Under the pieces are notes generated by a model. The model was given only the letters and a program-made list of their open reading frames with translations, ran no database searches and was not told the DNA's origin. Both the position numbers and the translations under genes were made by a program. A DNA stretch of 43,223 bases from a virus. Positions within the stretch are counted from its first letter, which is position 1; each line of letters opens with the position of its first letter. Shown piece by piece: positions 17,822-43,223 of the stretch. The stretch is taken from positions 1 to 43,223 of the IMG/VR virus record IMGVR_UViG_3300030329_001222. One strand, 5' to 3'.

Positions 17822-18288
17822 ATATAATACGAAAGAACTACGATAGAGTTCAACCCTCACACGATTACATGAAGTATTGGCGGGTGATAAGGTATTGGGC
17901 TAAAGCCAAATACAAGATCGGAACTCCGGATATAGATATGTTATTTTTCCTCTATAGCGAACAAATATTTAATAAAACAAAGTTTAAAGAGTTTGAAGAG
18001 TGTATGTCTTGGGATGAACCCAGGTTCTATAGGCTTCTAAATCAAGGCTATATACATGTATGGCGTAAACGTAACGGTAATGAAACTACTTTATATGAGT
18101 TATCTTATAAAGGGAAACGCCTTATTAATACTTTATATAAGAAATTAAACGGAGAGGAAATAGGAGAATCCCCTACTATCAATCCTTTATTTAGACATGA
18201 TGCTTCTTATATGGATAAAGTATACAGGAATATGATTATAGAAATGAATAAGTTTATAAAACAACAACGACATCTCTCTCCTGAATAA
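17815..18288 (+). CDS. Winged-helix (MarR-like) DNA-binding protein
   Basis: 157 aa from the ATG at 17815; an in-frame upstream extension to 17725 lies in promoter sequence and overlaps the opposite gene, so is rejected. The pattern PDIDMLFFLYSEQIF, an RFYRLLNQGYIHVWRKRNGN hairpin and then YELSYKGKRLINTLYKKL fits helix-turn-helix plus wing plus helix as in MarR-type regulators. It is the only rightward gene in the left half, and its 3' end overlaps groES antisense by 35 nt. Placement beside face-to-face promoters suggests it controls late transcription (inference). It could also be a virion protein. Confidence 0.6.
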   Translation: MSNIIRKNYDRVQPSHDYMKYWRVIRYWAKAKYKIGTPDIDMLFFLYSEQIFNKTKFKEFEECMSWDEPRFYRLLNQGYIHVWRKRNGNETTLYELSYKGKRLINTLYKKLNGEEIGESPTINPLFRHDASYMDKVYRNMIIEMNKFIKQQRHLSPE

Positions 18289-18511
18289 TAGTATAAGGAT
18301 TATCTTCTATTAACATTTGATGTCCTGCCGCTCCATCATAATAAACAATATCATCTTTATTTATTACTGATACATCAGTACCGGGTTTTACTACTTTTCC
18401 TTTCTTATATCTAAAGTTATTAGCATCTTCATTAGATAATAATAAACCTGATTCTGTTTTAAGCTCTTCTTTAATACTTTTAATTACGATATATTTTCCT
18501 ATTGGTTTCAT
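18254..18511 (-). CDS. groES: Co-chaperonin GroES
   Basis: 85 aa, slightly short for GroES. N-terminal strand MKPIGKYIVIKSIKEE, a mobile-loop-like ESGLLLSNEDANNF, GKVVKPG, DDIVYYDGAAGH and a C-terminal ERDVVVVL follow the family layout. It caps GroEL during folding. Its ATG overlaps the groEL stop by 4 nt (ATGA), giving order groEL-groES, the reverse of bacterial operons. The 3' end overlaps the convergent winged-helix gene. Confidence 0.88.
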   Translation of the reverse strand: MKPIGKYIVIKSIKEELKTESGLLLSNEDANNFRYKKGKVVKPGTDVSVINKDDIVYYDGAAGHQMLIEDNPYTIIQERDVVVVL

Positions 18512-20088
18512 GAGTCTGTATGTATTCTTGCGTGAGTAACAATAGCGTTAGTAGTAAGTATAGTGGTAGCTACACTAATAGCATTAGATAAAGCCTGTGT
18601 GGTAACACGCGCTGGATCAACTACACCCATCTTAAACATATCCCCATATTTACCTGTAACAACATTATATCCGAAGTTCTTTTTAAGGCCTTCCTCGTAT
18701 ATATCTTTTTTATCTAATCCTGCATTTACCAGTATTTGTTGTAATGGAGCTTGTAATGTTTCTTTAATTATCTTATCACTTATAGAAGATCCGTTATATT
18801 GTTGTGCTATATTATATAATAATACTCCTCCACCAGCAACAATTCCTTCTTGTAGTGCGCTACGCACTGCACATACCGAGTCATCGACTCGGTCGAATTT
18901 TTCTTTTTGCTCTATATCTGAGGTAGCTCCTACATATATACACCCTATTCCTCCAACTAAAGACGCTATTCTTTCATTAATAAAATCTTTCTCATGTTTA
19001 GCTGTTAGTCTTTGCTGTTGTTCTTTAAGCTCCTCTACTCTTTCTCGAGTCTCTATAGTAACATCTCCATCTTTAATAATGATAGTAGAATCTTTACCTG
19101 CTATAATTTTATCAGCATGACCCAGATCCTCCATACGAATTAATGATAAATCATCTCCAGTTTTTTCTGAAAAGTATTTAGCTCCTATAGAAAAAGCTAT
19201 ATCCTGCATTAATTCATGTGTCTTATAACCAAATGAAGGTGGTTTTATATTACAGAACTTTAAACCATTACGCTGTACATTAGCGGCTAAGGTATTAATA
19301 ACATTCTGCGAACAGTCTCCAATGATTAATAATTTATCTCCTGAATTAATAATTGGCTTTAATACATTTTCAATCTGAAGTATATTACTAATCTCAGTAT
19401 CACATATAAGAACTTTAACATTTTCATAAATACACTCATCCTTACGCTGATCGTTAATAAACATTGGAGATGTCCATCCTCTATCTACTTTTATACCATT
19501 AGTAACCTCGGCATAGGTCTTATCTGTTTGAGAACGCTCCACTGTTACTATACCATCTCGACCCACTTGATTATAAGCTAAAGCTATAATATCACCAATC
19601 TCTTTATCGTTATTAGCAGAGATAGTGGCTATATCTTCTAACATCTTCTCAGTTACATCAATTGACTCCTTTTTTATTTGTTTAATTATTTTATCGCCTA
19701 TCTCTCTTATTTTCCTAACTACTTGTATAATGTTATCGCCCTCTTGAATGTATTTCTGTCCTGCTTTAACTAAGGCTTCTGTTAAGACAATAGCCGTAGT
19801 TGTCCCATCTCCAGCTGTGCTGGCCGTTTTTTCTGAAGCTTGCTTCATCATACGAACCGCAAGGTTCTCGATTGGATCTAAAAGAAAGATTGATTTAGCT
19901 ACAGTTACTCCGTCTTTAGTTACTGTTAATCCTTGAGTGTGTTCAGCTGACTCTATAAGGACTGTTTGGCCCTGTGGGCCCAGAGTTGATTTAACTGCGT
20001 TAGATATTTTTGAGATTCCCGATATTAGTTTTTCTCTTGCCTCCTCATTAAAAGCAAGCTCTTTTGGAATGTACCCTTGTTCTTTCAT
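18508..20088 (-). CDS. groEL: Chaperonin GroEL
   Basis: 526 aa, near full length for a 60-kDa chaperonin. ATP-binding segments are present: STLGPQGQTV, TKDGVTVAKSI, AGDGTTTAIVL (with the P-loop Asp), RVDDSVCAVRSALQEGIVAG (with the Asp equivalent to E. coli Asp398) and VVDPARVTTQAL. The Gly-Gly-Met tail of bacterial GroEL is absent (ends HARIHTDS). Sequence divergence from host-type GroEL is considerable in the apical domain. It probably folds capsid or other phage proteins. Promoter at 20121-20128. Confidence 0.96.
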   Translation of the reverse strand: MKEQGYIPKELAFNEEAREKLISGISKISNAVKSTLGPQGQTVLIESAEHTQGLTVTKDGVTVAKSIFLLDPIENLAVRMMKQASEKTASTAGDGTTTAIVLTEALVKAGQKYIQEGDNIIQVVRKIREIGDKIIKQIKKESIDVTEKMLEDIATISANNDKEIGDIIALAYNQVGRDGIVTVERSQTDKTYAEVTNGIKVDRGWTSPMFINDQRKDECIYENVKVLICDTEISNILQIENVLKPIINSGDKLLIIGDCSQNVINTLAANVQRNGLKFCNIKPPSFGYKTHELMQDIAFSIGAKYFSEKTGDDLSLIRMEDLGHADKIIAGKDSTIIIKDGDVTIETRERVEELKEQQQRLTAKHEKDFINERIASLVGGIGCIYVGATSDIEQKEKFDRVDDSVCAVRSALQEGIVAGGGVLLYNIAQQYNGSSISDKIIKETLQAPLQQILVNAGLDKKDIYEEGLKKNFGYNVVTGKYGDMFKMGVVDPARVTTQALSNAISVATTILTTNAIVTHARIHTDS

Positions 20089-21064: not shown

Positions 21065-21305
21065 CTTGTGTCCTTGTTCTGTCCTCTGTTCGTTCTTTTT
21101 GTCCTCTGTTTGTCCTTCCCTCGTTCCCTTTATTGAACAAATAAAACTATTGAGATAGACAAAGAAAGAGAATAAAACCCCCACGAATACCCCAAAACAC
21201 AAACAAAAGACCAAGAAAACACAAAAAAATTTCTCTTATAACTCATTGATTAACAACAACTTATAAATTATTTTCACATTGGGACAAAAATAATTGTCAA
21301 AAAGT

Positions 21306-21337
21306 TTGTTTTATTAAAAAGAATTACACTATATTTG
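21306..21337 (+). promoter_or_regulatory. Main rightward early promoter (TTG-N21-TATATTTG)
   Basis: TTG at 21306-21308, 21 nt, TATATTTG at 21330-21337: full flavobacterial consensus, 29 nt upstream of the first early ATG. Confidence 0.75.
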
Positions 21338-21366
21338 TACAATAATTAATAAAAAAATAAACAATT

Positions 21367-21780
21367 ATGAAAACAACAAAGCACATTAAAAATTTAGCTC
21401 AGGGATTAGCAAACGAGGATATTAAAAACTCTAATTACTGGACAGAACAAGACAAACCCCAATTAACAAAATGGAGAATTGAAGAATTAACACGAATAAA
21501 AAACGCTTTAATTAATGGTAAATTTTATGCCGGTGTTGAGAGTGTGAGCAAATCCGGAATGAGCCGAATCATAAAACTGGCTTACATCTATAAAAATAAA
21601 CTTCATAAAATTACAGATAGTGAAATTTTGTCCTTAGCTGGAGTGTCTAAAAATGGGAGAATTTCAGGGTGTGGAATGGATATGCTATTCCAAGCACAAT
21701 ACACACTATTTCAAAACCTACATAGAACGTATAAACAAGCACACTATCAAAAAAGAATGCCTAATTATAACAACCTATAA
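21367..21780 (+). CDS. Conserved early phage protein
   Basis: 137 aa, first gene after the early promoter. Contains a VESVSKSGMSRIIKLAYIY segment (about 57-76) that I recognise from phage proteins of unknown function (xSVSxSGMSRxIK), then GRISGCGMDMLFQAQYTLF. Soluble and basic. First-position early genes often take over host functions; none can be named here. Confidence 0.65.
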   Translation: MKTTKHIKNLAQGLANEDIKNSNYWTEQDKPQLTKWRIEELTRIKNALINGKFYAGVESVSKSGMSRIIKLAYIYKNKLHKITDSEILSLAGVSKNGRISGCGMDMLFQAQYTLFQNLHRTYKQAHYQKRMPNYNNL

Positions 21781-21803
21781 AAACAATTAAAAACAACAAA
21801 CAA

Positions 21804-21932
21804 ATGAAAAATAATAATGAAATAATGTACTGCGTAAATTCAAAAGGACAAAGAATAAAACCTTATACAAGCATGTACACAGAGCCAAAATTAAATAGAA
21901 TACAACGATTGATTAAATTTATATTTGGATAA
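21804..21932 (+). CDS. Small hypothetical protein (42 aa)
   Basis: 42 aa, MKNNNEIMYCVNSKGQRIKP..., ends LIKFIFG. Short gap (23 nt) after the preceding gene and an A-rich start context. Its stop is 5 nt before the hammerhead-like RNA, so self-cleavage would give this message a defined 3' end. Confidence 0.45.
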   Translation: MKNNNEIMYCVNSKGQRIKPYTSMYTEPKLNRIQRLIKFIFG

Positions 21933-21936
21933 AAGA

Positions 21937-21991
21937 GTTATTCTGATGATGGACTAAATGTCCGAAACCGGTAGAAATACCGGTCAATAAC
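21937..21991 (+). ncRNA. Hammerhead ribozyme, type I (candidate)
   Basis: Stem I GTTATT (21937-21942)/AATAAC (21986-21991), 6 bp. Core CTGATGA (21943-21949). Stem II GGAC (21951-21954)/GTCC (21960-21963) with loop TAAAT. Core GAA (21964-21966). Stem III ACCGGTA (21967-21973)/TACCGGT (21978-21984), 7 bp, with a GAAA tetraloop. C17 at 21985 is the predicted cleavage site. All invariant core bases are present, and A15.1-U16.1 pairs as required. One extra U (21950) lies between A9 and stem II. It sits between two small early genes, so cleavage would split the early transcript 31 nt before the ATG at 22017. Confidence 0.82.
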
Positions 21992-22016
21992 AAATACTAA
22001 TATAAATTAAAAAATT

Positions 22017-22280
22017 ATGAAAATTACAGAATTTACAAAAATGGTTAAACACTTAACCGAACTATCATCTACAATAAATTATTACTTGATAGAGGAAGAA
22101 TTAAAACACTTTAACGAGTGGTTATTTACTGAACACAACATTGAGTTAAAAGAGGACTTTGAAAAGCACATTGAAGAGTTAATTGAGAGTGAAACAATAT
22201 ACCAAGAAGACCACATCTATTTAACAATTAGAGAAAGTGAAAAGTATATTGAGAAACTACAAAATAAAATAAATATATAA
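22017..22280 (+). CDS. Small acidic helical protein (87 aa)
   Basis: 87 aa, Glu/Lys-rich with helix pattern throughout (YYLIEEELKHFNEWLF; ESEKYIEKLQNKINI). Downstream product of the predicted ribozyme cleavage. No family recognised; acidic early proteins may mimic DNA or bind host factors, but nothing specific points that way. Confidence 0.6.
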   Translation: MKITEFTKMVKHLTELSSTINYYLIEEELKHFNEWLFTEHNIELKEDFEKHIEELIESETIYQEDHIYLTIRESEKYIEKLQNKINI

Positions 22281-22398: not shown

Positions 22399-22761
22399 AT
22401 GAAATACGCCAGAAAATGTGATTACACAGGTCAAGGAATGAATACAGGATATGTATTTATAGATTATTCCTGTATGATAGATGATAGAGAATTATTTATC
22501 AAAGAAATAAAAAAAGACAAAGAAGCAATACTAAATTTAATACCAAAAGATATCAAAGATATTAAAGGATTTGACAATTCTTGTTATCTAAACGATAAAG
22601 AGTTAGAGGAGTTATCTAACAAAATAGCAAACGCACTTAATAATACTGAAACTGATGAAGAATTATGCGATATAGCATATGCAGTAGATTATTATTATTG
22701 GACTGAATGGGATGAATTTGAGTATGAGGAAATTAACGGAGTATTAACTGAATTAGCATAA
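22399..22761 (+). CDS. Conserved acidic phage protein (CDYTGQGMNTGY type)
   Basis: 120 aa. N-terminal CDYTGQGMNTGYVF and C-terminal DYYYWTEWDEFEYEE resemble a widespread family of small phage proteins (CxxTGxGMNxGY...YYTEW) with unknown function. Strongly acidic. Starts after an A-rich gap. Confidence 0.65.
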   Translation: MKYARKCDYTGQGMNTGYVFIDYSCMIDDRELFIKEIKKDKEAILNLIPKDIKDIKGFDNSCYLNDKELEELSNKIANALNNTETDEELCDIAYAVDYYYWTEWDEFEYEEINGVLTELA

Positions 22762-22779: not shown

Positions 22780-23214
22780 ATGGGATATAATACAGATTGG
22801 AACGGACAATTAAATTTAAGTAGAAAATTAACAGACAAAGAACAAGAAGAATGGGACACTATTCAGAATGAAAGGCACGATAGTGAATATGAGTATGGAA
22901 ATAAAAATAGAGAATACCCAAGTATATGGTGTGGATTTGAGGTGAATGGAGATGTTTTTGAATGGGACACAAACGAAAAAACATACATGGGACAAGAATG
23001 GATAAGATTCTTTGTAAACAAGGTAATAGAATGGAATAAAGAAAAAGAAATTATCGTTGAGGGAGAAATGGAGTGGAGAGGAGAATATATGGGAGATAAC
23101 GGAAAAGTAAAAGTAAAATATAATACTGGATCGAAAATGTATCAAATTGATATATACGAAATAGATTATGTAAGAACAGAAAGAAGAACAGAAAGACAAT
23201 TAATAAATAACTAA
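22780..23214 (+). CDS. Conserved phage protein (MGYNTDWNG type)
   Basis: 144 aa. N-terminal MGYNTDWNGQLNLSRKLTD, central YPSIWCGFEV, EWDTNEK and EWIRFFVNKVIEW, and VEGEMEWRGEYMGDNGKVKV match a family of phage proteins I recognise (MGYdTxFxGxL...LWCqW...WdgxEKFY...GeVeWqGE), function unknown. Start behind AATTAAAATTAAATAAA. Confidence 0.72.
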   Translation: MGYNTDWNGQLNLSRKLTDKEQEEWDTIQNERHDSEYEYGNKNREYPSIWCGFEVNGDVFEWDTNEKTYMGQEWIRFFVNKVIEWNKEKEIIVEGEMEWRGEYMGDNGKVKVKYNTGSKMYQIDIYEIDYVRTERRTERQLINN

Positions 23215-35543: not shown

Positions 35544-38500
35544 TTAGTCCATCGGATTATCACCCTCCATCGGATTGTCGCTCTCCATAGGATTGTTTCC
35601 TATCATTGGATTATCACCACTCATTACATCTAAATCATCTTCCATAGGGTTATCTGTTTTTCTTTTTTTCTTACGCTTAGAACTCTTTTTTCTAATACGT
35701 TTTAAGTCTTTTTTCTTTTTAGCATTTCTTTCTTTCTCACTTTGAATTTGATATTCACTGTAATTAAATAGACGCATAATAACTCTGGCCGGATCCTCTC
35801 CTCCTTCTACTAACTCTTCAGCATTTAAATAAATTTTTCTTAAGTTATTAGCAGGTAGACCCGTGAACTGTGCTCCTTCCATTATTAATTCCATCAAGCG
35901 TTGTTCTTTTTTATCTGGGTCTTTCGTCATTAAATAACGATTGAATTTTTTGTAAAATATTTGAGATTGAGTTAGGATGGTTAAGTTTTTAGCCTCTAAA
36001 AACGACTCCGGTTTTCTTTGCCATAAATCTGCACCATTACTTATTATATCTCCAATAATAAATAACCCATTTATATTACCCAGAATAGCTGCTCTTGCTA
36101 AATCACTTTCATCCTCTTCATCCCAGTCTGCTAAAAACCCAGGTAACCCATTAGCTACCCATTGAAACAACATAGGTAAAACCACATGATAAGTCAAAAA
36201 TACCCGAGTGTGTTGCCACTTAGTTCCTTTACCTTGCTTTCCTCCAGAAGCCAACAACCTATAAAACTCTCTTATAGCATATACCTCTTGCCTTAAATAT
36301 TGCTTAGGCTGAGTAAGGAACATGTTCATAGCTCTACTAAATGCTCCTTTAGTTTGAAAGTAATCTCTGTCTTGTAAGTCAGTAGACTGCTGCGTCCTTT
36401 TAGTATCTCTTTCAAATAATCTAATAGCATGATTAATCGCCTCTTGTTCAGTAGCTTTAGGATTATTCTTTTTAAACTCATTCTTATAATAAACATAATT
36501 AGGAACTCCTCCTAAATAAATAGCTCCTATATCTCCCAGCCTTACATTAAACATCATATAATCTAATAACTTTTGTCTATTAGCTCCCGACAAGTAACTA
36601 ACCATTTTATCTTCGGTATAGGTTTCTAAAGCTTTACTAATGTTTTCTTTTTGACGGTCTTTTAAATAAACAGAGTTCTCTTTTATTTCTTTCCACGCAC
36701 CTTTAATAGACTCTCCTCTTACTCCACGAATAGCAGACGCATTTTTAAACCAGTTTCTGTATCCTATATGGGCAGCGTAAGCTGGTGCTGAGGTTAACTG
36801 TTTTAAAGTAATAACAGGAGAAAGACCTAAACGAGATAAAACAAATGCATCTTGCATGATGTTAACAGCGTTCCCAAACTCTAACGCTTCTTTAGACATA
36901 CCCTTGTTAGCAATTTTTTGTATAGCCGCGTCTATCGTCTTATTAGTGTTTTCCCCGTGAACTCTTTTAATGGTTTTTCTAATGACAGGATTAGTAAAAA
37001 TTTTATTAATGTCACTGATAGGACGAGCGAAAGCTGCAAAGTATTCCATATCTCTTACATAAGTAAACAAAGCATTAGTACCATCAGTAGGTTTAATAGC
37101 TCTCTTATTATCTTGTCTCATCTTAGTAGAGTTAGCTGACACCACATTATGATATTGAGGTTTCATTCCTGCCAATAAATTTATGCCTGGATCTGAATCT
37201 TTTTGATCCACATCTCTATACACCATACCCGCATAGTTTACATTGTAAGGCATATCAATTCTATAGATATCTTTATACGCCTGGTTATAATATTGATATA
37301 AAGATGGATATAATATATCTACTTGCCAATCTGCAAAGGCTTTTAAGTTTTTATATTTTTCTGATTCTAAAGTAGAGGTTATCTCATTCATTATTTTAAC
37401 TAAACCATCTTGATCTGTGTCAAAAGTTGATTGTAAACCAGCGTGATTAAGAGGGTCTTTATATTGGTTATATAAATAATATAATTCATTAGGAGATAAG
37501 GTGTATGTTCTTTTACCTATTTCATCATCTAATTTGTTTTTGTTTTTCTCAGTAGGATTTTGCTCATAAGCCACTTCAGCTTTTTTAATTGCTTCAGTCT
37601 CTGAAATTATATCTATACTTTTTTGGTTGTAATCCGTACTCATTAACTTCTTCCACTTTTTACCAAACAACTCTTTAGCTTTAGTAGTTATAACTGAGTT
37701 TACTATCATAGTACGTTCTTTAAAACTACGACTGGCTTCATCTATTCTCTCGGTAACTTCAGCTTGTGTCTTACCTCCAAAAAGTTCGCCCGGTAATTTA
37801 GATATTTTAGCCATTAATAAAGACATATCGGAGTTTTTAGCCATCATATCTCCCATGCTTTGAAAAATACTATTGACTATTTTTTTAGCACGCCCTCTGG
37901 TTTTGTTCTTCTTGTCTACCAAGCGGTCTAAATCTGGTTGTTCTTTTCTAATATCCTCTATTATATCTGATATCTTATCGTTAATTTGAATATCTGTAGG
38001 TTTTGCTATTCCTTCTTCTTGTAATTCTCTAATAGCTTGGTCTTCAAAACTCTCCTCTCTTCCAACGACATCTCTATATACCTGCTCAAATTGTCTTCTG
38101 TATTCTAAATGAGCTTTTTGTAACTGTTCTTTTAATGCTGTTCTGCCGGTTACCATAATATCTTTTAAAGCAGTAACCACTGTAGATAAAGAACTTACCT
38201 TATTAATATCGTTATCTCCCATTAAATTATTAGCGTTTACCAACTTCATTATAATTTCTAAGTCTGCCATTGCTGTAAAGTCTCCCTCTTTTTTATTAGG
38301 AACTTCGCTTATCTTATTATATTCTGCTTCTAATTCATTTAGATAATCGTTAACCTCGTCTTCAGTTTTAAATGCTTTTTTAGGATATACTTTGTTTCTA
38401 ATGTTCTCAATTCTTTTACGAGTATCGTCATCTATCTTTACTCCTTTTAAGATGTTGTTAATTTTAATTCTATCTTTTGGGTTTAATAATTTTTGAACCT

Positions 38501-41500
38501 CTCCTTCTAATATTTTATTATTTTTTTCTGCGGCAAACTCTATGATTTCGTTTTGAATATTTTGGATATTATCTTTATTAGCTTGCGAAAGTTTTAATAG
38601 TAATTTAGAAACATCACTTTTAGTATATACATCTTTAGGTAAAGTTTTTCTTAAAAAGTTTCTTAAGTCTTGTTGAACTTTTTTAATTTCTCTCTGTCCT
38701 AATTTTTTAGAATTTAAAATTAAACGTGAAGTTTTAAGAGCATTAGCTAAGTCTGAACTTTGCTTACCTCCTAAAGCACGTGCTATATCAATTTCTATTA
38801 ATCTCTGTTGAGAAGATAAAGCTATTTTCTTTTTATCACCCACCTTTTTAAACTCCGGTTGGTTTCTTAAAAACTCCATGGTTTCATCCATGATTTCTTG
38901 TTCTGTTTTCTTAACCTTAGACTGAATGTTAGCCTTACGTAGTTGGTTATATTTTTTAAATACTTTAGTGTATAACTTTATTCCATTGTTCATTCCTCCT
39001 ACTAAATTTCCTAAAGATGGAGGTATGGTTGTTAGTAAATCTGCATTTACTTTCATTAATTCGTTTACCTCTCTTACCGGAAACTTTCTAACTCTGGTTA
39101 AATAATCCTTAATAGCAGGATCGGTAAAGTTTTGATTACGCGCTTTATTAATAATATCAATTGCATTGTCTTCTTTATTAAATACTTCTTGTTGGTTTTC
39201 GTTAACTATTTTTTGTTGTCTCTCTTTGAGCCTTGGGTTAACCATTCTTCCGTTCTTAGTTAAAAAATATCCGGTGGTTCTACCATAATCATAAGCACTC
39301 TTATCTCTTACTTGCGCTCTTCCTACTCCATACCCTAAAGAAGCTGCCCAGTTTTTTAAAGCTGGTAATGAATTGCCAATGTTTGGACCAATAAATCCTT
39401 TAGGATTCATATTATACATTTGTATTAATTTATCTATACCGGCTTTTTGTTGTTTCTCTTTCTGGGTATCCTCTTTCTTTTTAGGTTCTTTCTTTTTAGT
39501 CTCTTTCTTTTTAGTCTCTTTCTTTTTAGTTTCTTTTTTAGGTGTTTGCTTTTTAGTTTCCTTTTTAGGAACTTTAATTTTTTCAATCACCTCTACATCT
39601 GTATCTTTTATTTCTTTTCCTTTTCTTACTTTTTTAGACACCACATTAAAGAACTCTATTATATCAGCATCTTCTTCTGTATATCTCGTTATATTTACAG
39701 GTAAACCAATAGTCTTAGCAATTTTTTGGATCCACCTTTTAACCACATCTTTGGTGCTGTAATCTAACTTAGTATAATTAGAAGCTAACATTCCAAACAA
39801 CTCGGACACTTGTTCTTCGTTTTGTACACCCGCCTCATAATCTTTAGCAAATTTCTGTAGGTCTTGTTTGATCTTAGGATTCTTAATAGATTTTAAGGCA
39901 GCGTTTAACATTCGCTTAGTTATCTTATTAATATTAGGATCAACCCCTAATCTATCTACCACCACGGCATGCATAACTTCATGCGCCACACTTCTGTTAT
40001 TAGCTTTTGGTATACTAATATGAATGGTATTGGTGGTTGGATTATATACTGCCCGTGAACCTTTGCTTTCGGGAGCCACAACAAAATCAAAATCTTGCTG
40101 TGAATTATGCAACACAAAATTTAAATTAGGCATAAGATTTTTAACAGCAGAGGCTGCCTTTTGAGTTACATTGGTAATAAAATCTACCTGTTCTGTTTGT
40201 GTTTCAGTTGGAGACTGCTCCGTTATAGTAACATTGTCTGCTATCTTTCTTCCTTTCATTCTGGTTTTTACACCTTCTGAATTATTTATTTCTACTTCTC
40301 CCTCTGGTAAAGGAGTGGTGTCTACTTCTTCTTGTACAGCGGTTTCTACGTCGGTAGCGGGAGTAGGTTCTACTGTCACATCAGTCTCTACTCCGGTAGC
40401 AGGAGTAGGCTCTACTGTCACATCAGTCTCCTGTTCTGTTACTATCTCCCGCGGTCTACCAGTTTGTTCAGAAATCAAAGCATCTAAATCTTTAACTTCT
40501 TGTTCTATATCTCGTTTTACTTTCTTTTTCCCCTTCGTTTCAATATCGGTTTCACTTTGGATTTGACTCTCAACGGCAGCGGCCCCTTGGGTGTCACTCT
40601 CTCCCACTTGGCGGCCATCTTGGGTTTGTACTTGTACATCCACTTTCTCTGTGCTTGGCTTTTGAATGGCATCTTGTTTAGTTTTATCGGTTAATTCTTC
40701 TTTTGGTGTAGTAACTTCTTCAGTTACTTTTTCTTCTACTACCTCCTCTGGTTTAGGAGTAGTTTCTTTTTTAGCATCTTTTACAACTTTATCAACTGTA
40801 CTGCTTACTGACTTAAGTATTTTCTTTTTAGCATCATCCAACTCCCTCATTCTCATTTCAATTTGTCGAGGTGAAGGGTTTTGTACCCCTTCCTTTTGTA
40901 AAGATTTAATAGCGTAATCTATAAATATTTTTTTAGCTTCCGACTCTTGACGAGCAGCTTCTCCTTCTCTTAATATATTTTCTACATTAGCTTCTAACTC
41001 CTTTAATTCTTTTTGTTGTTTTTTAGTTAACTGTTTATCATATTTATCTACATAATCTTTAAGTTCTTGTTGTCTCAGTAGATTACCTAACAGTTGTTGT
41101 TTTTGTTCTAATGGTAAATTGTCAGGAATTTGATTAGAGACTCCTATTACCTGGTCATATACAGATAAATTTTTATCTGCTTCTTTTTGAGTTAAAGTAC
41201 CTGCTAAAATTTGTTTTTTTAATTCTGCCACATAACCTTGTCTGGTCATCTCTGGCATATTTTCCATACTTCTTATTTCCTCAAACAGTTTAAATGTTTC
41301 TGGAGATACTTGAGAAAAATCTCCATCACTCACAGCGGTTACTATAGCAGAAGGTGTAGACATTATTTTACCACCTACTGATTCAGCCACACCAGCAAAC
41401 ATAAGCTGATCCAACATAGCTCTTACGTTATCGGGATTATTAAAAGCCTCGGAACCTTTAAGAGCATCATATATTTCTTCAATTCCTATTTCTGCTGCCT

Positions 41501-43223
41501 CTTGTAGTAAACCGGTTTCAAACTCAGCAGCACCACCGGCACCTATCACCAATAGTCCTTTGGAGAACATATTGTTTACTTCTTTTCTTACTACTTCTTG
41601 AAATCCTTTTCCACTAACATCAACTCCAGTTTTCCCCAATACTCTCATTAAAACAGAACTCAGTAAACCTTTAGATTCCAGAACATTTCTAAAACCAACT
41701 TCTTCTAAAACCCCCACTGTAATACCAATAGGTACAGAAATTAATTTTTTTTCCAACTCAGATATATCATCAAAGTAAGGGTTCTTAGAAATAGCTTCAT
41801 TAGCACGGGCATAAGCACTACTTACTGTAGTAACTCTGGCACTGGTCTTTCCTGGCCCACGTCCAATAAACATAGGTAAACTTCGAGCCGTACCATATAA
41901 CCCTGTCCATAAAGCATGCTGCATCCATGATCTATCTCCCCTCGACATTTGTTTTTTAGTATACTCATGAGTAGTAGCTTCATCACCTAAAAAATGTACA
42001 TAGCCATCACCTATTCCATCTAACATCCCTCCGCTTTTTCCGCCTAAATACATGTTCACAAAATCTGAATAAATGTTTTCACCTAATTCTACCCCCATAA
42101 GTTCCGCGTTATTGTCCCCCCATTTTATCTCTTTACGCAGTTCATCTAAAGTATCACCTCCTAAAGCTTTACCTCCACTTACTTTGTCTGCTATATAGGT
42201 ACTTGCGTCTATTACCAAATCTGCCCATCCAGCTCCTCTGTCACCCCATCCTCTAAGAAATTCATTATATAAGATACCGCTTACTCTACCCTGTAACGAC
42301 TCCATCATATAATAGGATCCTATCTGTTCGTCTAACTCAGCTCCTATACGGGCTAACTCCTGGTCTTTTAAACTTAAGTCAAAAGCTTGTGTCATTAATT
42401 CTTTTTCTAATTGCCCCGCCGTCATCGCTCGTACATTATTTTCTTCTCCTTCCGGTTGATTCAGAGACAGAACCCCTGTACTATTATCTATATAAATAAC
42501 CTGGTCTGTAGGTAAATCCCTAATACCGCTTTCCAAATACATAGTTTTTAAAGCTAAAAAATCACGCATTTCACCCATGACTTTATCACTTCGGTAATGG
42601 AATTTTTTAATTGTTTTTTCTACTTGCTCTCTGCTTTGAAACTTTTTTTGTTTTTCAATATATCCTTCTTCTATTTGATAAGCTAAACTACTGGCTTCTT
42701 TATTCTTTCTTAAGAAGGCAGCTAAATCTCTTTGGTCACTATCGCGATGTAGGTACATTTCATCTCCATTAGCTGAGGTTACTTTTACTACATTATTTCT
42801 ATCAAACTCTTCTCCAGCTTCTTTCTTTTCTCTATTAGTAGCTTCTTCAAATGTAAAACCATAATCTCCGAAATGATAATTATAAAGAGCCGATACATTT
42901 TGATCCGGCTGGTCAATGTTTTCATCCCATACTTGTTGCATAGAATTTTCAAAAGGATCATCGCTTTCTATATAATCTCTTACAAATCCTCCTTCAGGAG
43001 CGCTTCTTCCAAAATCGGTTTCATAAGTGTACTTTCTTGTGCGATTATCTCGCGTAAAAGCTTCTGATGCGCCCGCTACATCTCCGCTTGCCATTCGGTA
43101 AAGCCCGGTTATTTTATCCCCCAAACCTTTAAATAATATTTTAGCACCTCCAAAACTTTCTGATCTGCTACGTATACCTTGGTCTGCTATAAACTGATCT
43201 TGATCTATTTGTTGTTCCGGGTC
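35544..43223 (-). CDS. Giant polyvalent virion protein with zincin motif, 5' end outside
   Basis: At least 2,559 residues; the frame is open to the right edge, and the only 'start' near it (TTG at 43124) is not needed. Visible parts: N-terminal helical region; putative membrane-active segments; a Glu/Thr/Val repeat region (TPATGVETDVTVEP, about 950); HEVMH zinc-metalloprotease motif at about residue 1080 (near 39970-39984) in SVAHEVMHAVVVDR; Lys-rich (KKET)n tract (39470-39560); long coiled coils; near the C-terminus an NHAIRLFERDTKRTQQSTDL and GAFSRAMNMFLTQP segment typical of large polyvalent phage proteins; and five NPM repeats at the end. Probably an ejected internal virion protein. Confidence 0.75.
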   Translation of the reverse strand, partial: DPEQQIDQDQFIADQGIRSRSESFGGAKILFKGLGDKITGLYRMASGDVAGASEAFTRDNRTRKYTYETDFGRSAPEGGFVRDYIESDDPFENSMQQVWDENIDQPDQNVSALYNYHFGDYGFTFEEATNREKKEAGEEFDRNNVVKVTSANGDEMYLHRDSDQRDLAAFLRKNKEASSLAYQIEEGYIEKQKKFQSREQVEKTIKKFHYRSDKVMGEMRDFLALKTMYLESGIRDLPTDQVIYIDNSTGVLSLNQPEGEENNVRAMTAGQLEKELMTQAFDLSLKDQELARIGAELDEQIGSYYMMESLQGRVSGILYNEFLRGWGDRGAGWADLVIDASTYIADKVSGGKALGGDTLDELRKEIKWGDNNAELMGVELGENIYSDFVNMYLGGKSGGMLDGIGDGYVHFLGDEATTHEYTKKQMSRGDRSWMQHALWTGLYGTARSLPMFIGRGPGKTSARVTTVSSAYARANEAISKNPYFDDISELEKKLISVPIGITVGVLEEVGFRNVLESKGLLSSVLMRVLGKTGVDVSGKGFQEVVRKEVNNMFSKGLLVIGAGGAAEFETGLLQEAAEIGIEEIYDALKGSEAFNNPDNVRAMLDQLMFAGVAESVGGKIMSTPSAIVTAVSDGDFSQVSPETFKLFEEIRSMENMPEMTRQGYVAELKKQILAGTLTQKEADKNLSVYDQVIGVSNQIPDNLPLEQKQQLLGNLLRQQELKDYVDKYDKQLTKKQQKELKELEANVENILREGEAARQESEAKKIFIDYAIKSLQKEGVQNPSPRQIEMRMRELDDAKKKILKSVSSTVDKVVKDAKKETTPKPEEVVEEKVTEEVTTPKEELTDKTKQDAIQKPSTEKVDVQVQTQDGRQVGESDTQGAAAVESQIQSETDIETKGKKKVKRDIEQEVKDLDALISEQTGRPREIVTEQETDVTVEPTPATGVETDVTVEPTPATDVETAVQEEVDTTPLPEGEVEINNSEGVKTRMKGRKIADNVTITEQSPTETQTEQVDFITNVTQKAASAVKNLMPNLNFVLHNSQQDFDFVVAPESKGSRAVYNPTTNTIHISIPKANNRSVAHEVMHAVVVDRLGVDPNINKITKRMLNAALKSIKNPKIKQDLQKFAKDYEAGVQNEEQVSELFGMLASNYTKLDYSTKDVVKRWIQKIAKTIGLPVNITRYTEEDADIIEFFNVVSKKVRKGKEIKDTDVEVIEKIKVPKKETKKQTPKKETKKKETKKKETKKKEPKKKEDTQKEKQQKAGIDKLIQMYNMNPKGFIGPNIGNSLPALKNWAASLGYGVGRAQVRDKSAYDYGRTTGYFLTKNGRMVNPRLKERQQKIVNENQQEVFNKEDNAIDIINKARNQNFTDPAIKDYLTRVRKFPVREVNELMKVNADLLTTIPPSLGNLVGGMNNGIKLYTKVFKKYNQLRKANIQSKVKKTEQEIMDETMEFLRNQPEFKKVGDKKKIALSSQQRLIEIDIARALGGKQSSDLANALKTSRLILNSKKLGQREIKKVQQDLRNFLRKTLPKDVYTKSDVSKLLLKLSQANKDNIQNIQNEIIEFAAEKNNKILEGEVQKLLNPKDRIKINNILKGVKIDDDTRKRIENIRNKVYPKKAFKTEDEVNDYLNELEAEYNKISEVPNKKEGDFTAMADLEIIMKLVNANNLMGDNDINKVSSLSTVVTALKDIMVTGRTALKEQLQKAHLEYRRQFEQVYRDVVGREESFEDQAIRELQEEGIAKPTDIQINDKISDIIEDIRKEQPDLDRLVDKKNKTRGRAKKIVNSIFQSMGDMMAKNSDMSLLMAKISKLPGELFGGKTQAEVTERIDEASRSFKERTMIVNSVITTKAKELFGKKWKKLMSTDYNQKSIDIISETEAIKKAEVAYEQNPTEKNKNKLDDEIGKRTYTLSPNELYYLYNQYKDPLNHAGLQSTFDTDQDGLVKIMNEITSTLESEKYKNLKAFADWQVDILYPSLYQYYNQAYKDIYRIDMPYNVNYAGMVYRDVDQKDSDPGINLLAGMKPQYHNVVSANSTKMRQDNKRAIKPTDGTNALFTYVRDMEYFAAFARPISDINKIFTNPVIRKTIKRVHGENTNKTIDAAIQKIANKGMSKEALEFGNAVNIMQDAFVLSRLGLSPVITLKQLTSAPAYAAHIGYRNWFKNASAIRGVRGESIKGAWKEIKENSVYLKDRQKENISKALETYTEDKMVSYLSGANRQKLLDYMMFNVRLGDIGAIYLGGVPNYVYYKNEFKKNNPKATEQEAINHAIRLFERDTKRTQQSTDLQDRDYFQTKGAFSRAMNMFLTQPKQYLRQEVYAIREFYRLLASGGKQGKGTKWQHTRVFLTYHVVLPMLFQWVANGLPGFLADWDEEDESDLARAAILGNINGLFIIGDIISNGADLWQRKPESFLEAKNLTILTQSQIFYKKFNRYLMTKDPDKKEQRLMELIMEGAQFTGLPANNLRKIYLNAEELVEGGEDPARVIMRLFNYSEYQIQSEKERNAKKKKDLKRIRKKSSKRKKKRKTDNPMEDDLDVMSGDNPMIGNNPMESDNPMEGDNPMD

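Follow-up and report, generated by a model that had tools for sequence, protein, structure and literature searches.

The DNA at positions 21937-21991 (+) of the phage record IMGVR_UViG_3300030329_001222 (IMG/VR) is a complete type I hammerhead ribozyme in which stem I is open and one extra U lies between A9 and stem II, as found by direct reading and a descriptor scan. The window referred to below is the whole stretch analysed, 43,223 nt in length. The stems, core, GAA, tetraloop, C17 and extra U given for this site in a preliminary description, made from the letters alone, proved correct base for base. On the basis of the sequence, we put at roughly 0.8 the probability that the RNA is a type I hammerhead that cleaves itself at C21985/A21986, so that the upstream mRNA is parted from a downstream one that carries a 31-nt leader. 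This reading is supported by sequence, structure, covariation, orthology and genomic placement. The parts of the ribozyme are:

21937-21942 (+): 5' strand of stem I, GTTATT, pairing with 21986-21991
21943-21949 (+): catalytic core CTGATGA (CUGAUGA, C3-A9), read directly; invariant in the family alignment save for N7
21950 (+): extra U (U9a) between A9 and G10.1, read directly
21951-21963 (+): stem II, GGAC (21951-21954) with GTCC (21960-21963), loop TAAAT (UAAAU); read directly, reproduced by folding, and covarying in relatives
21964-21966 (+): core GAA (G12 A13 A14), invariant in alignments
21967-21984 (+): stem III of 7 bp, ACCGGTA (21967-21973), GAAA tetraloop and TACCGGT (21978-21984), with A15.1-U16.1 at the stem base
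21985 (+): C17, with cleavage predicted 3' of it (5'-OH at 21986) by homology to the hammerhead consensus
21986-21991 (+): 3' strand of stem I, AATAAC, predicted 5' end of the downstream RNA; direct reading and descriptor scan
21986-22016 (+): 31-nt leader predicted on the downstream mRNA after cleavage, read directly; the family median from cleavage site to ATG is 27 nt

The fold has the three-way junction of type I, with stem I open-ended and stems II and III closed by loops, and its core contains C3 U4 G5 A6 N7 G8 A9 together with G12 A13 A14. A21967-U21984 corresponds to A15.1-U16.1, G21951-C21963 to G10.1-C11.1, and C21985 to H17 (non-G). Between A9 and 10.1 there is the one extra U (21950), a position whose absence is usual and not strictly defining for type I, given that the CChMVd(+) viroid hammerhead counts as a member despite an additional core nucleotide. 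Computed folding of the RNA returns precisely this structure, with all three stems (-17.7 kcal/mol, z = -3.6 to -4.1). Across the family, position 17 is a C in 164 of 178 members, loops II of the type UNAAU/UNAUU are common and flanking A bases are conserved. The motif belongs to a phage-specific type I subfamily with a 6-bp open stem I, a short stem II, a UNAAU loop, a GNRA-type loop on stem III and often an extra U after A9. The preliminary description had called the odds of a chance occurrence very small, and 80,400 simulated windows with the dinucleotide composition of the window indeed gave 27 loose matches (5/4/5 bp) and a single strict one (6/4/7 bp), corresponding to about 1.2e-5 equally good matches per window (about 1 in 80,000).

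Complete type I hammerheads in many phage contigs were collected through pattern scans of IMG/VR. A covariance model, R1, derived from 25 such phage hammerheads and leaving out both the window and contig L003, recovers the window copy with 64.6 bits (E=1e-14) and that of L003 with 56.8 bits (E=1e-12), with no other match in either sequence. No second hammerhead was found on either strand of the window by descriptor scan or R1. Contig L003, a relative (83% identity), had come up in a protein search that took the gene at 22399 as query; its canonical hammerhead lies just before the homolog of that gene. A homolog of this gene alone does not predict a hammerhead, since three further contigs with one (L004-L006) have none. 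In a portal-protein search, which is blind to hammerheads, we obtained 80 relatives, and 41 records were then searched with R1; among the 11 relatives of at least 39 kb, seven contain a match. No hammerhead match was found in the closest annotated phage, MW202828 (portal 68%), or in Maribacter phage Panino. Matches to the strict family pattern come from 93 phage contigs, whereas bacterial and archaeal genomes totalling 257 Gb contain a single one. This sole match among GTDB genomes is a 5.3-kb contig (L130, QYPT01000005.1) with three hammerheads in a Streptomycetaceae metagenome-assembled genome, probably a mis-binned phage contig. Contigs L008 (6417 and 7124), L009 and L011 (7698) show the hammerhead core and stem II (CTGANGA...CGAAAC) with no clear stem III, followed by a leader resembling a ribosome-binding site or by unrelated sequence. 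They match the stem II/core pattern and fail the full descriptor, and were left out of the set; they are possibly degenerate hammerheads or a related motif.

The preliminary description had made its reading depend in part on covariation of the stems in related phages, and this is what we observe. Among 11 hammerheads of the window's clade, standard pairs fill 99.4% of the pair cells, and at 13 of the 16 pairs both partners change. Shuffled and slid controls fall far below this. The alignment was fitted to the model and is hence biased towards structure. An earlier count on sequences pre-chosen for pairing is not relied on. Two comparisons are free of the model-fitting bias. The ortholog of the window copy in contig L275 has an identical stem I, a leader that differs by one base and the same downstream gene start, while two stem III pairs are changed on both sides, the tetraloop is GCAA instead of GAAA and the extra U is absent. 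The second comparison concerns cultured phages, to which the family extends: the Flavobacterium elemoviruses (on strain BAL314) and Cellulophaga phage phi19:3, which carries another perfect hammerhead copy. Over aligned stretches of 106 nt, elemoA and elemoC differ at only four positions, which make up two compensatory stem II pairs (GACT/AGTC, GGTT/AACC). In elemoD, GACT is combined with AACC, which breaks stem II. Hypothetical small open reading frames (ORFs) are annotated antisense over the hammerhead in elemoviruses (L284:14105-14212, NC_055855.1 gp34; NC_055852.1 gp68; NC_062743.1 gp68) and are probably spurious annotations. Related phages keep the motif with matched base-pair changes, and the long phage mRNA is therefore very probably cut into gene-sized pieces.

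The hammerhead is intergenic on the transcribed strand of the phage and lies in a gap of 84 nt (21933-22016). The position of this gap between two small genes, as first described, is confirmed, both flanking ORFs being on the + strand:

21804-21932 (+): upstream small ORF of 42 amino acids (aa), with its stop 4 nt before stem I; no PHROG match
22017-22280 (+): downstream ORF of 87 aa, whose start is kept after the hammerhead in the ortholog L275; no PHROG match

This arrangement is typical of the family. In a set of 178 distinct hammerheads from 108 loci, an ATG-ORF starts within 300 nt of the cleavage site in 168 cases and within 60 nt in 145, compared with 31 nt in the window. Only two of the 178 lie inside a same-strand ORF of at least 100 aa, as against 33% of control positions. 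An upstream ORF of at least 40 aa ends near the motif in 162 cases, its stop codon overlapping or abutting stem I in 45 and lying inside the ribozyme in 68; stops within the ribozyme are mostly UAA in stem I or UGA in CUGA. A ribosome terminating on the upstream gene would cover the 5' part of the motif, and upstream translation could thus delay folding. The identification as a hammerhead therefore stands on the held-out model (R1), on covariation of all three stems in related phages and on the family-typical placement relative to stop and start codons.

That the RNA is cleaved, that this happens co-transcriptionally and that its two products are expressed or decay separately is our inference. 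During synthesis of the rightward early mRNA the motif would fold behind the RNA polymerase, and the RNA would cut itself between C21985 and A21986. The folded ribozyme, terminated by a 2',3'-cyclic phosphate, would then form the end of the upstream RNA, and the downstream RNA would start with 5'-OH-AAUAAC, followed by the rest of the 31-nt leader and the start codon at 22017. Two cistrons would in this way become separate messages.

Many of the related phages carry arrays. More than one hammerhead copy is present in 37 of the 108 loci, each array on one strand, with up to seven copies per record. Pairs of copies from one contig have an identical stem I in 50% of cases, compared with 3% for pairs from different contigs; for stem II the mean identity is hardly higher within contigs (0.66) than between them (0.63). 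The 3' flank, i.e. the predicted mRNA leader, is also more alike within contigs, and the 5' flank is not. The simplest reason for a shared stem I and 3' flank is a common 5' leader for the mRNAs; a putative trans-ligation between ribozyme halves is possible. A more elaborate scheme, which we regard as doubtful, is that the genome-specific shared stem I lets a set of hammerheads dice a polycistronic RNA into messages with the same 5'-OH leader, that the halves could re-ligate in trans and thereby reshuffle mRNA ends, and that U9a is a rate-tuning device. In L003, L274 and L276 the 3' flank of the hammerhead, which cleavage would turn into a 5' end (AGTATCATAAGATACC), is able to form a 5-bp hairpin; this would compete with stem I and so disfavour religation. 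A close relative of the window phage (L278:1507-3017, record G040) contains four hammerheads with near-identical stem I. One of these directly precedes the homolog of gene 22780-23214; in the window, the gap before this gene is only 18 nt long and lacks a hammerhead.

Several observations weigh against self-cleavage at the window site. The extra U is an unusual feature by which catalysis could be slowed. Inspection of the window copy shows no Watson-Crick pseudoknot linking loop II to the stem I flanks, and of the tertiary contact by which natural hammerheads are accelerated it shows only the conserved flanking A bases; in several other phage copies a plausible pairing of loop II with the flank is seen by eye (loop AAGC with flank GCT; GGCG with CGC). 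The upstream 42-aa ORF lacks homology support. Four of the 11 long relatives have no R1 match, and the hammerhead is therefore dispensable. Finally, Rfam 15 yields no hammerhead match in the window at the gathering score or at E<=10: the matches at E<=10 are chance snoRNA, rseX and miRNA hits, none above the cut-off, and the copy does not reach the gathering cut-off of RF00163, RF00008, RF02275 or RF03152. The covariance-model match by which the preliminary description proposed to check its reading was thus obtained with R1 and not with Rfam models. None of 11 hammerhead-bearing contigs has a gathering-level Rfam match to any hammerhead family, and the canonical siblings in phage contig L085 reach 31.4 bits with RF00163 against a cut-off of 34. 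Because these canonical siblings also score below the cut-off, the Rfam miss reflects a limit of model sensitivity and is not a functional verdict.

The extra U bears on whether the window copy is a decayed or slow hammerhead, an inherited fold rendered inactive or too slow to matter by U9a. Since it is absent from the ortholog L275 and from the other aligned members of the clade, U9a is, as far as the alignment tells, probably a recent insertion; elemoD shows in addition that phages can carry broken copies. All other core bases and all stems are intact in the window copy, however, and in other phages 22 of 66 sibling hammerheads also have U9a, a count from which one ascertaining match per contig was removed and which comes from contigs already selected for one U9a copy. 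In the (+) hammerhead of the viroid CChMVd an extra core nucleotide reportedly adjoins A9. This viroid hammerhead functions with its additional nucleotide (De la Pena and Flores 2001, as cited in PMC3705267 and PMC6155905). The main text of Perreault et al. (2011) describes hammerhead insertions after A6, at A13 and near C3 as well as a U10.1-U11.1 mismatch, and none at A9 (PMC3088659). We consider decay of the window copy unlikely.

Three other explanations have to be weighed against a cleaving ribozyme. Stem I and leader cassettes might copy themselves among intergenic sites, with processing as a side effect; this would fit the sharing of stem I and 3' flanks within contigs and the gain and loss of hammerheads in orthologous gaps, as between L278 and the window. 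Stem II, nearly as divergent within as between contigs, is contrary to recent copying, and the precise placement relative to stop and start codons also speaks against such an element, which we judge very unlikely. It is more improbable still that the motif is a non-cleaving structured intergenic element that resembles a hammerhead, such as an mRNA-end hairpin, an RNase site or a translation-coupling device. Stem III is a strong hairpin and upstream stops do abut the fold, but the unpaired core shows the same invariance as the catalytic consensus, whereas bases in the stems are free to vary, and nothing terminator-like is present. Hammerheads are simple motifs that arise by chance in large databases, as stated in the main text of PMC3088659; a chance arrangement of bases is nevertheless refuted here by covariation, with the simulated rate and the orthologous copy pointing the same way, and its probability is negligible.

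The wider neighbourhood agrees in part with the assignment to an early operon made in the preliminary description: the gene layout supports it, and the promoter evidence is weak. The relevant site is:

21305-21337 (+): TTTG-N21-TATATTTG, a promoter-like site of Bacteroidetes type that precedes the rightward gene block; weak

This pattern occurs four times in the window compared with 3.3 expected by chance. A promoter directly before the ribozyme was considered and rejected: the TATATTTG at 21920-21927 has no TTTG at the required distance, and TANNTTTG occurs at chance frequency. No intrinsic terminator was found. Two adjacent small genes have leaders around the start codon (21359-21393 and 21781-21812) that are 86% similar, another repeated 5' leader. 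PHROG matches among the phage proteins include portal, terminase, primase/helicase and GroEL; the phage's own GroEL (18508-20088) and a GroES-like protein (18254-18511) are encoded on the - strand. A single ORF of 2526 aa at 35544-43124 (-) gives a layout that resembles the giant structural proteins of elemoviruses. Among annotated phages whose hosts are named, the nearest ones infect Flavobacterium, Cellulophaga, Maribacter and Tenacibaculum, and the host is therefore very probably a flavobacterium.

Hammerheads were reported in phages in 2011, and they are now placed in a large set of environmental phages in which Rfam overlooks them. The architecture is tight, with the stop codon at or in the ribozyme and the predicted cut about 27 nt before the next start. 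Because the stems of elemoA and elemoC are intact and compensated while stem II of elemoD is naturally broken, isolates that already exist lend themselves to a comparative test of what the ribozyme does; the extra U, which recurs, likewise provides a natural test of the tolerance of the catalytic core. What is new here is a variant of the type I hammerhead, found in a phage and bearing an insertion in its core; the family to which it belongs is missed by Rfam yet has cultured members.

Compared with type I hammerheads of animals, bacteria and phages (RF00163), the window copy has the same core, three stems, open stem I and (predicted) H17 cleavage site; it differs by the extra U9a, a stem I of only 6 bp, the UNAAU loop II and the lack of an Rfam score. 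RAGATH-1 hammerheads (RF03152) show weak, sub-threshold similarity to the canonical L085 siblings, and the window copy is not detected. According to the main text of Perreault et al. 2011 (PMC3088659), the clustered hammerheads of prophages and of haloviruses HF1/HF2 likewise lie between phage genes, with several per genome flanking genes. HHphage precedes an early gene by 13 nt, with a 5' end mapped close to the site of cleavage, an early transcript of HF1/HF2 has a mapped 5' end within 3 nt of the hammerhead site, and three tandem arrangements cut in vitro, one of them also in E. coli. Unlike these systems, as described there, the present family belongs to a flavobacterial podovirus clade with up to seven copies per record that often have one common stem I, and the insertion of HHphage is at C3/stem I while that of the window follows A9. 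The CChMVd(+) hammerhead, as described in PMC3705267 and PMC6155905, also contains an extra core nucleotide, which is an A instead of a U and belongs to a viroid and not a DNA phage. Theta ribozymes of gut phages, as presented in PMC10879173, are self-cleaving phage RNAs as well, with a hepatitis delta virus (HDV)-like fold and a link to tRNA-based recoding.
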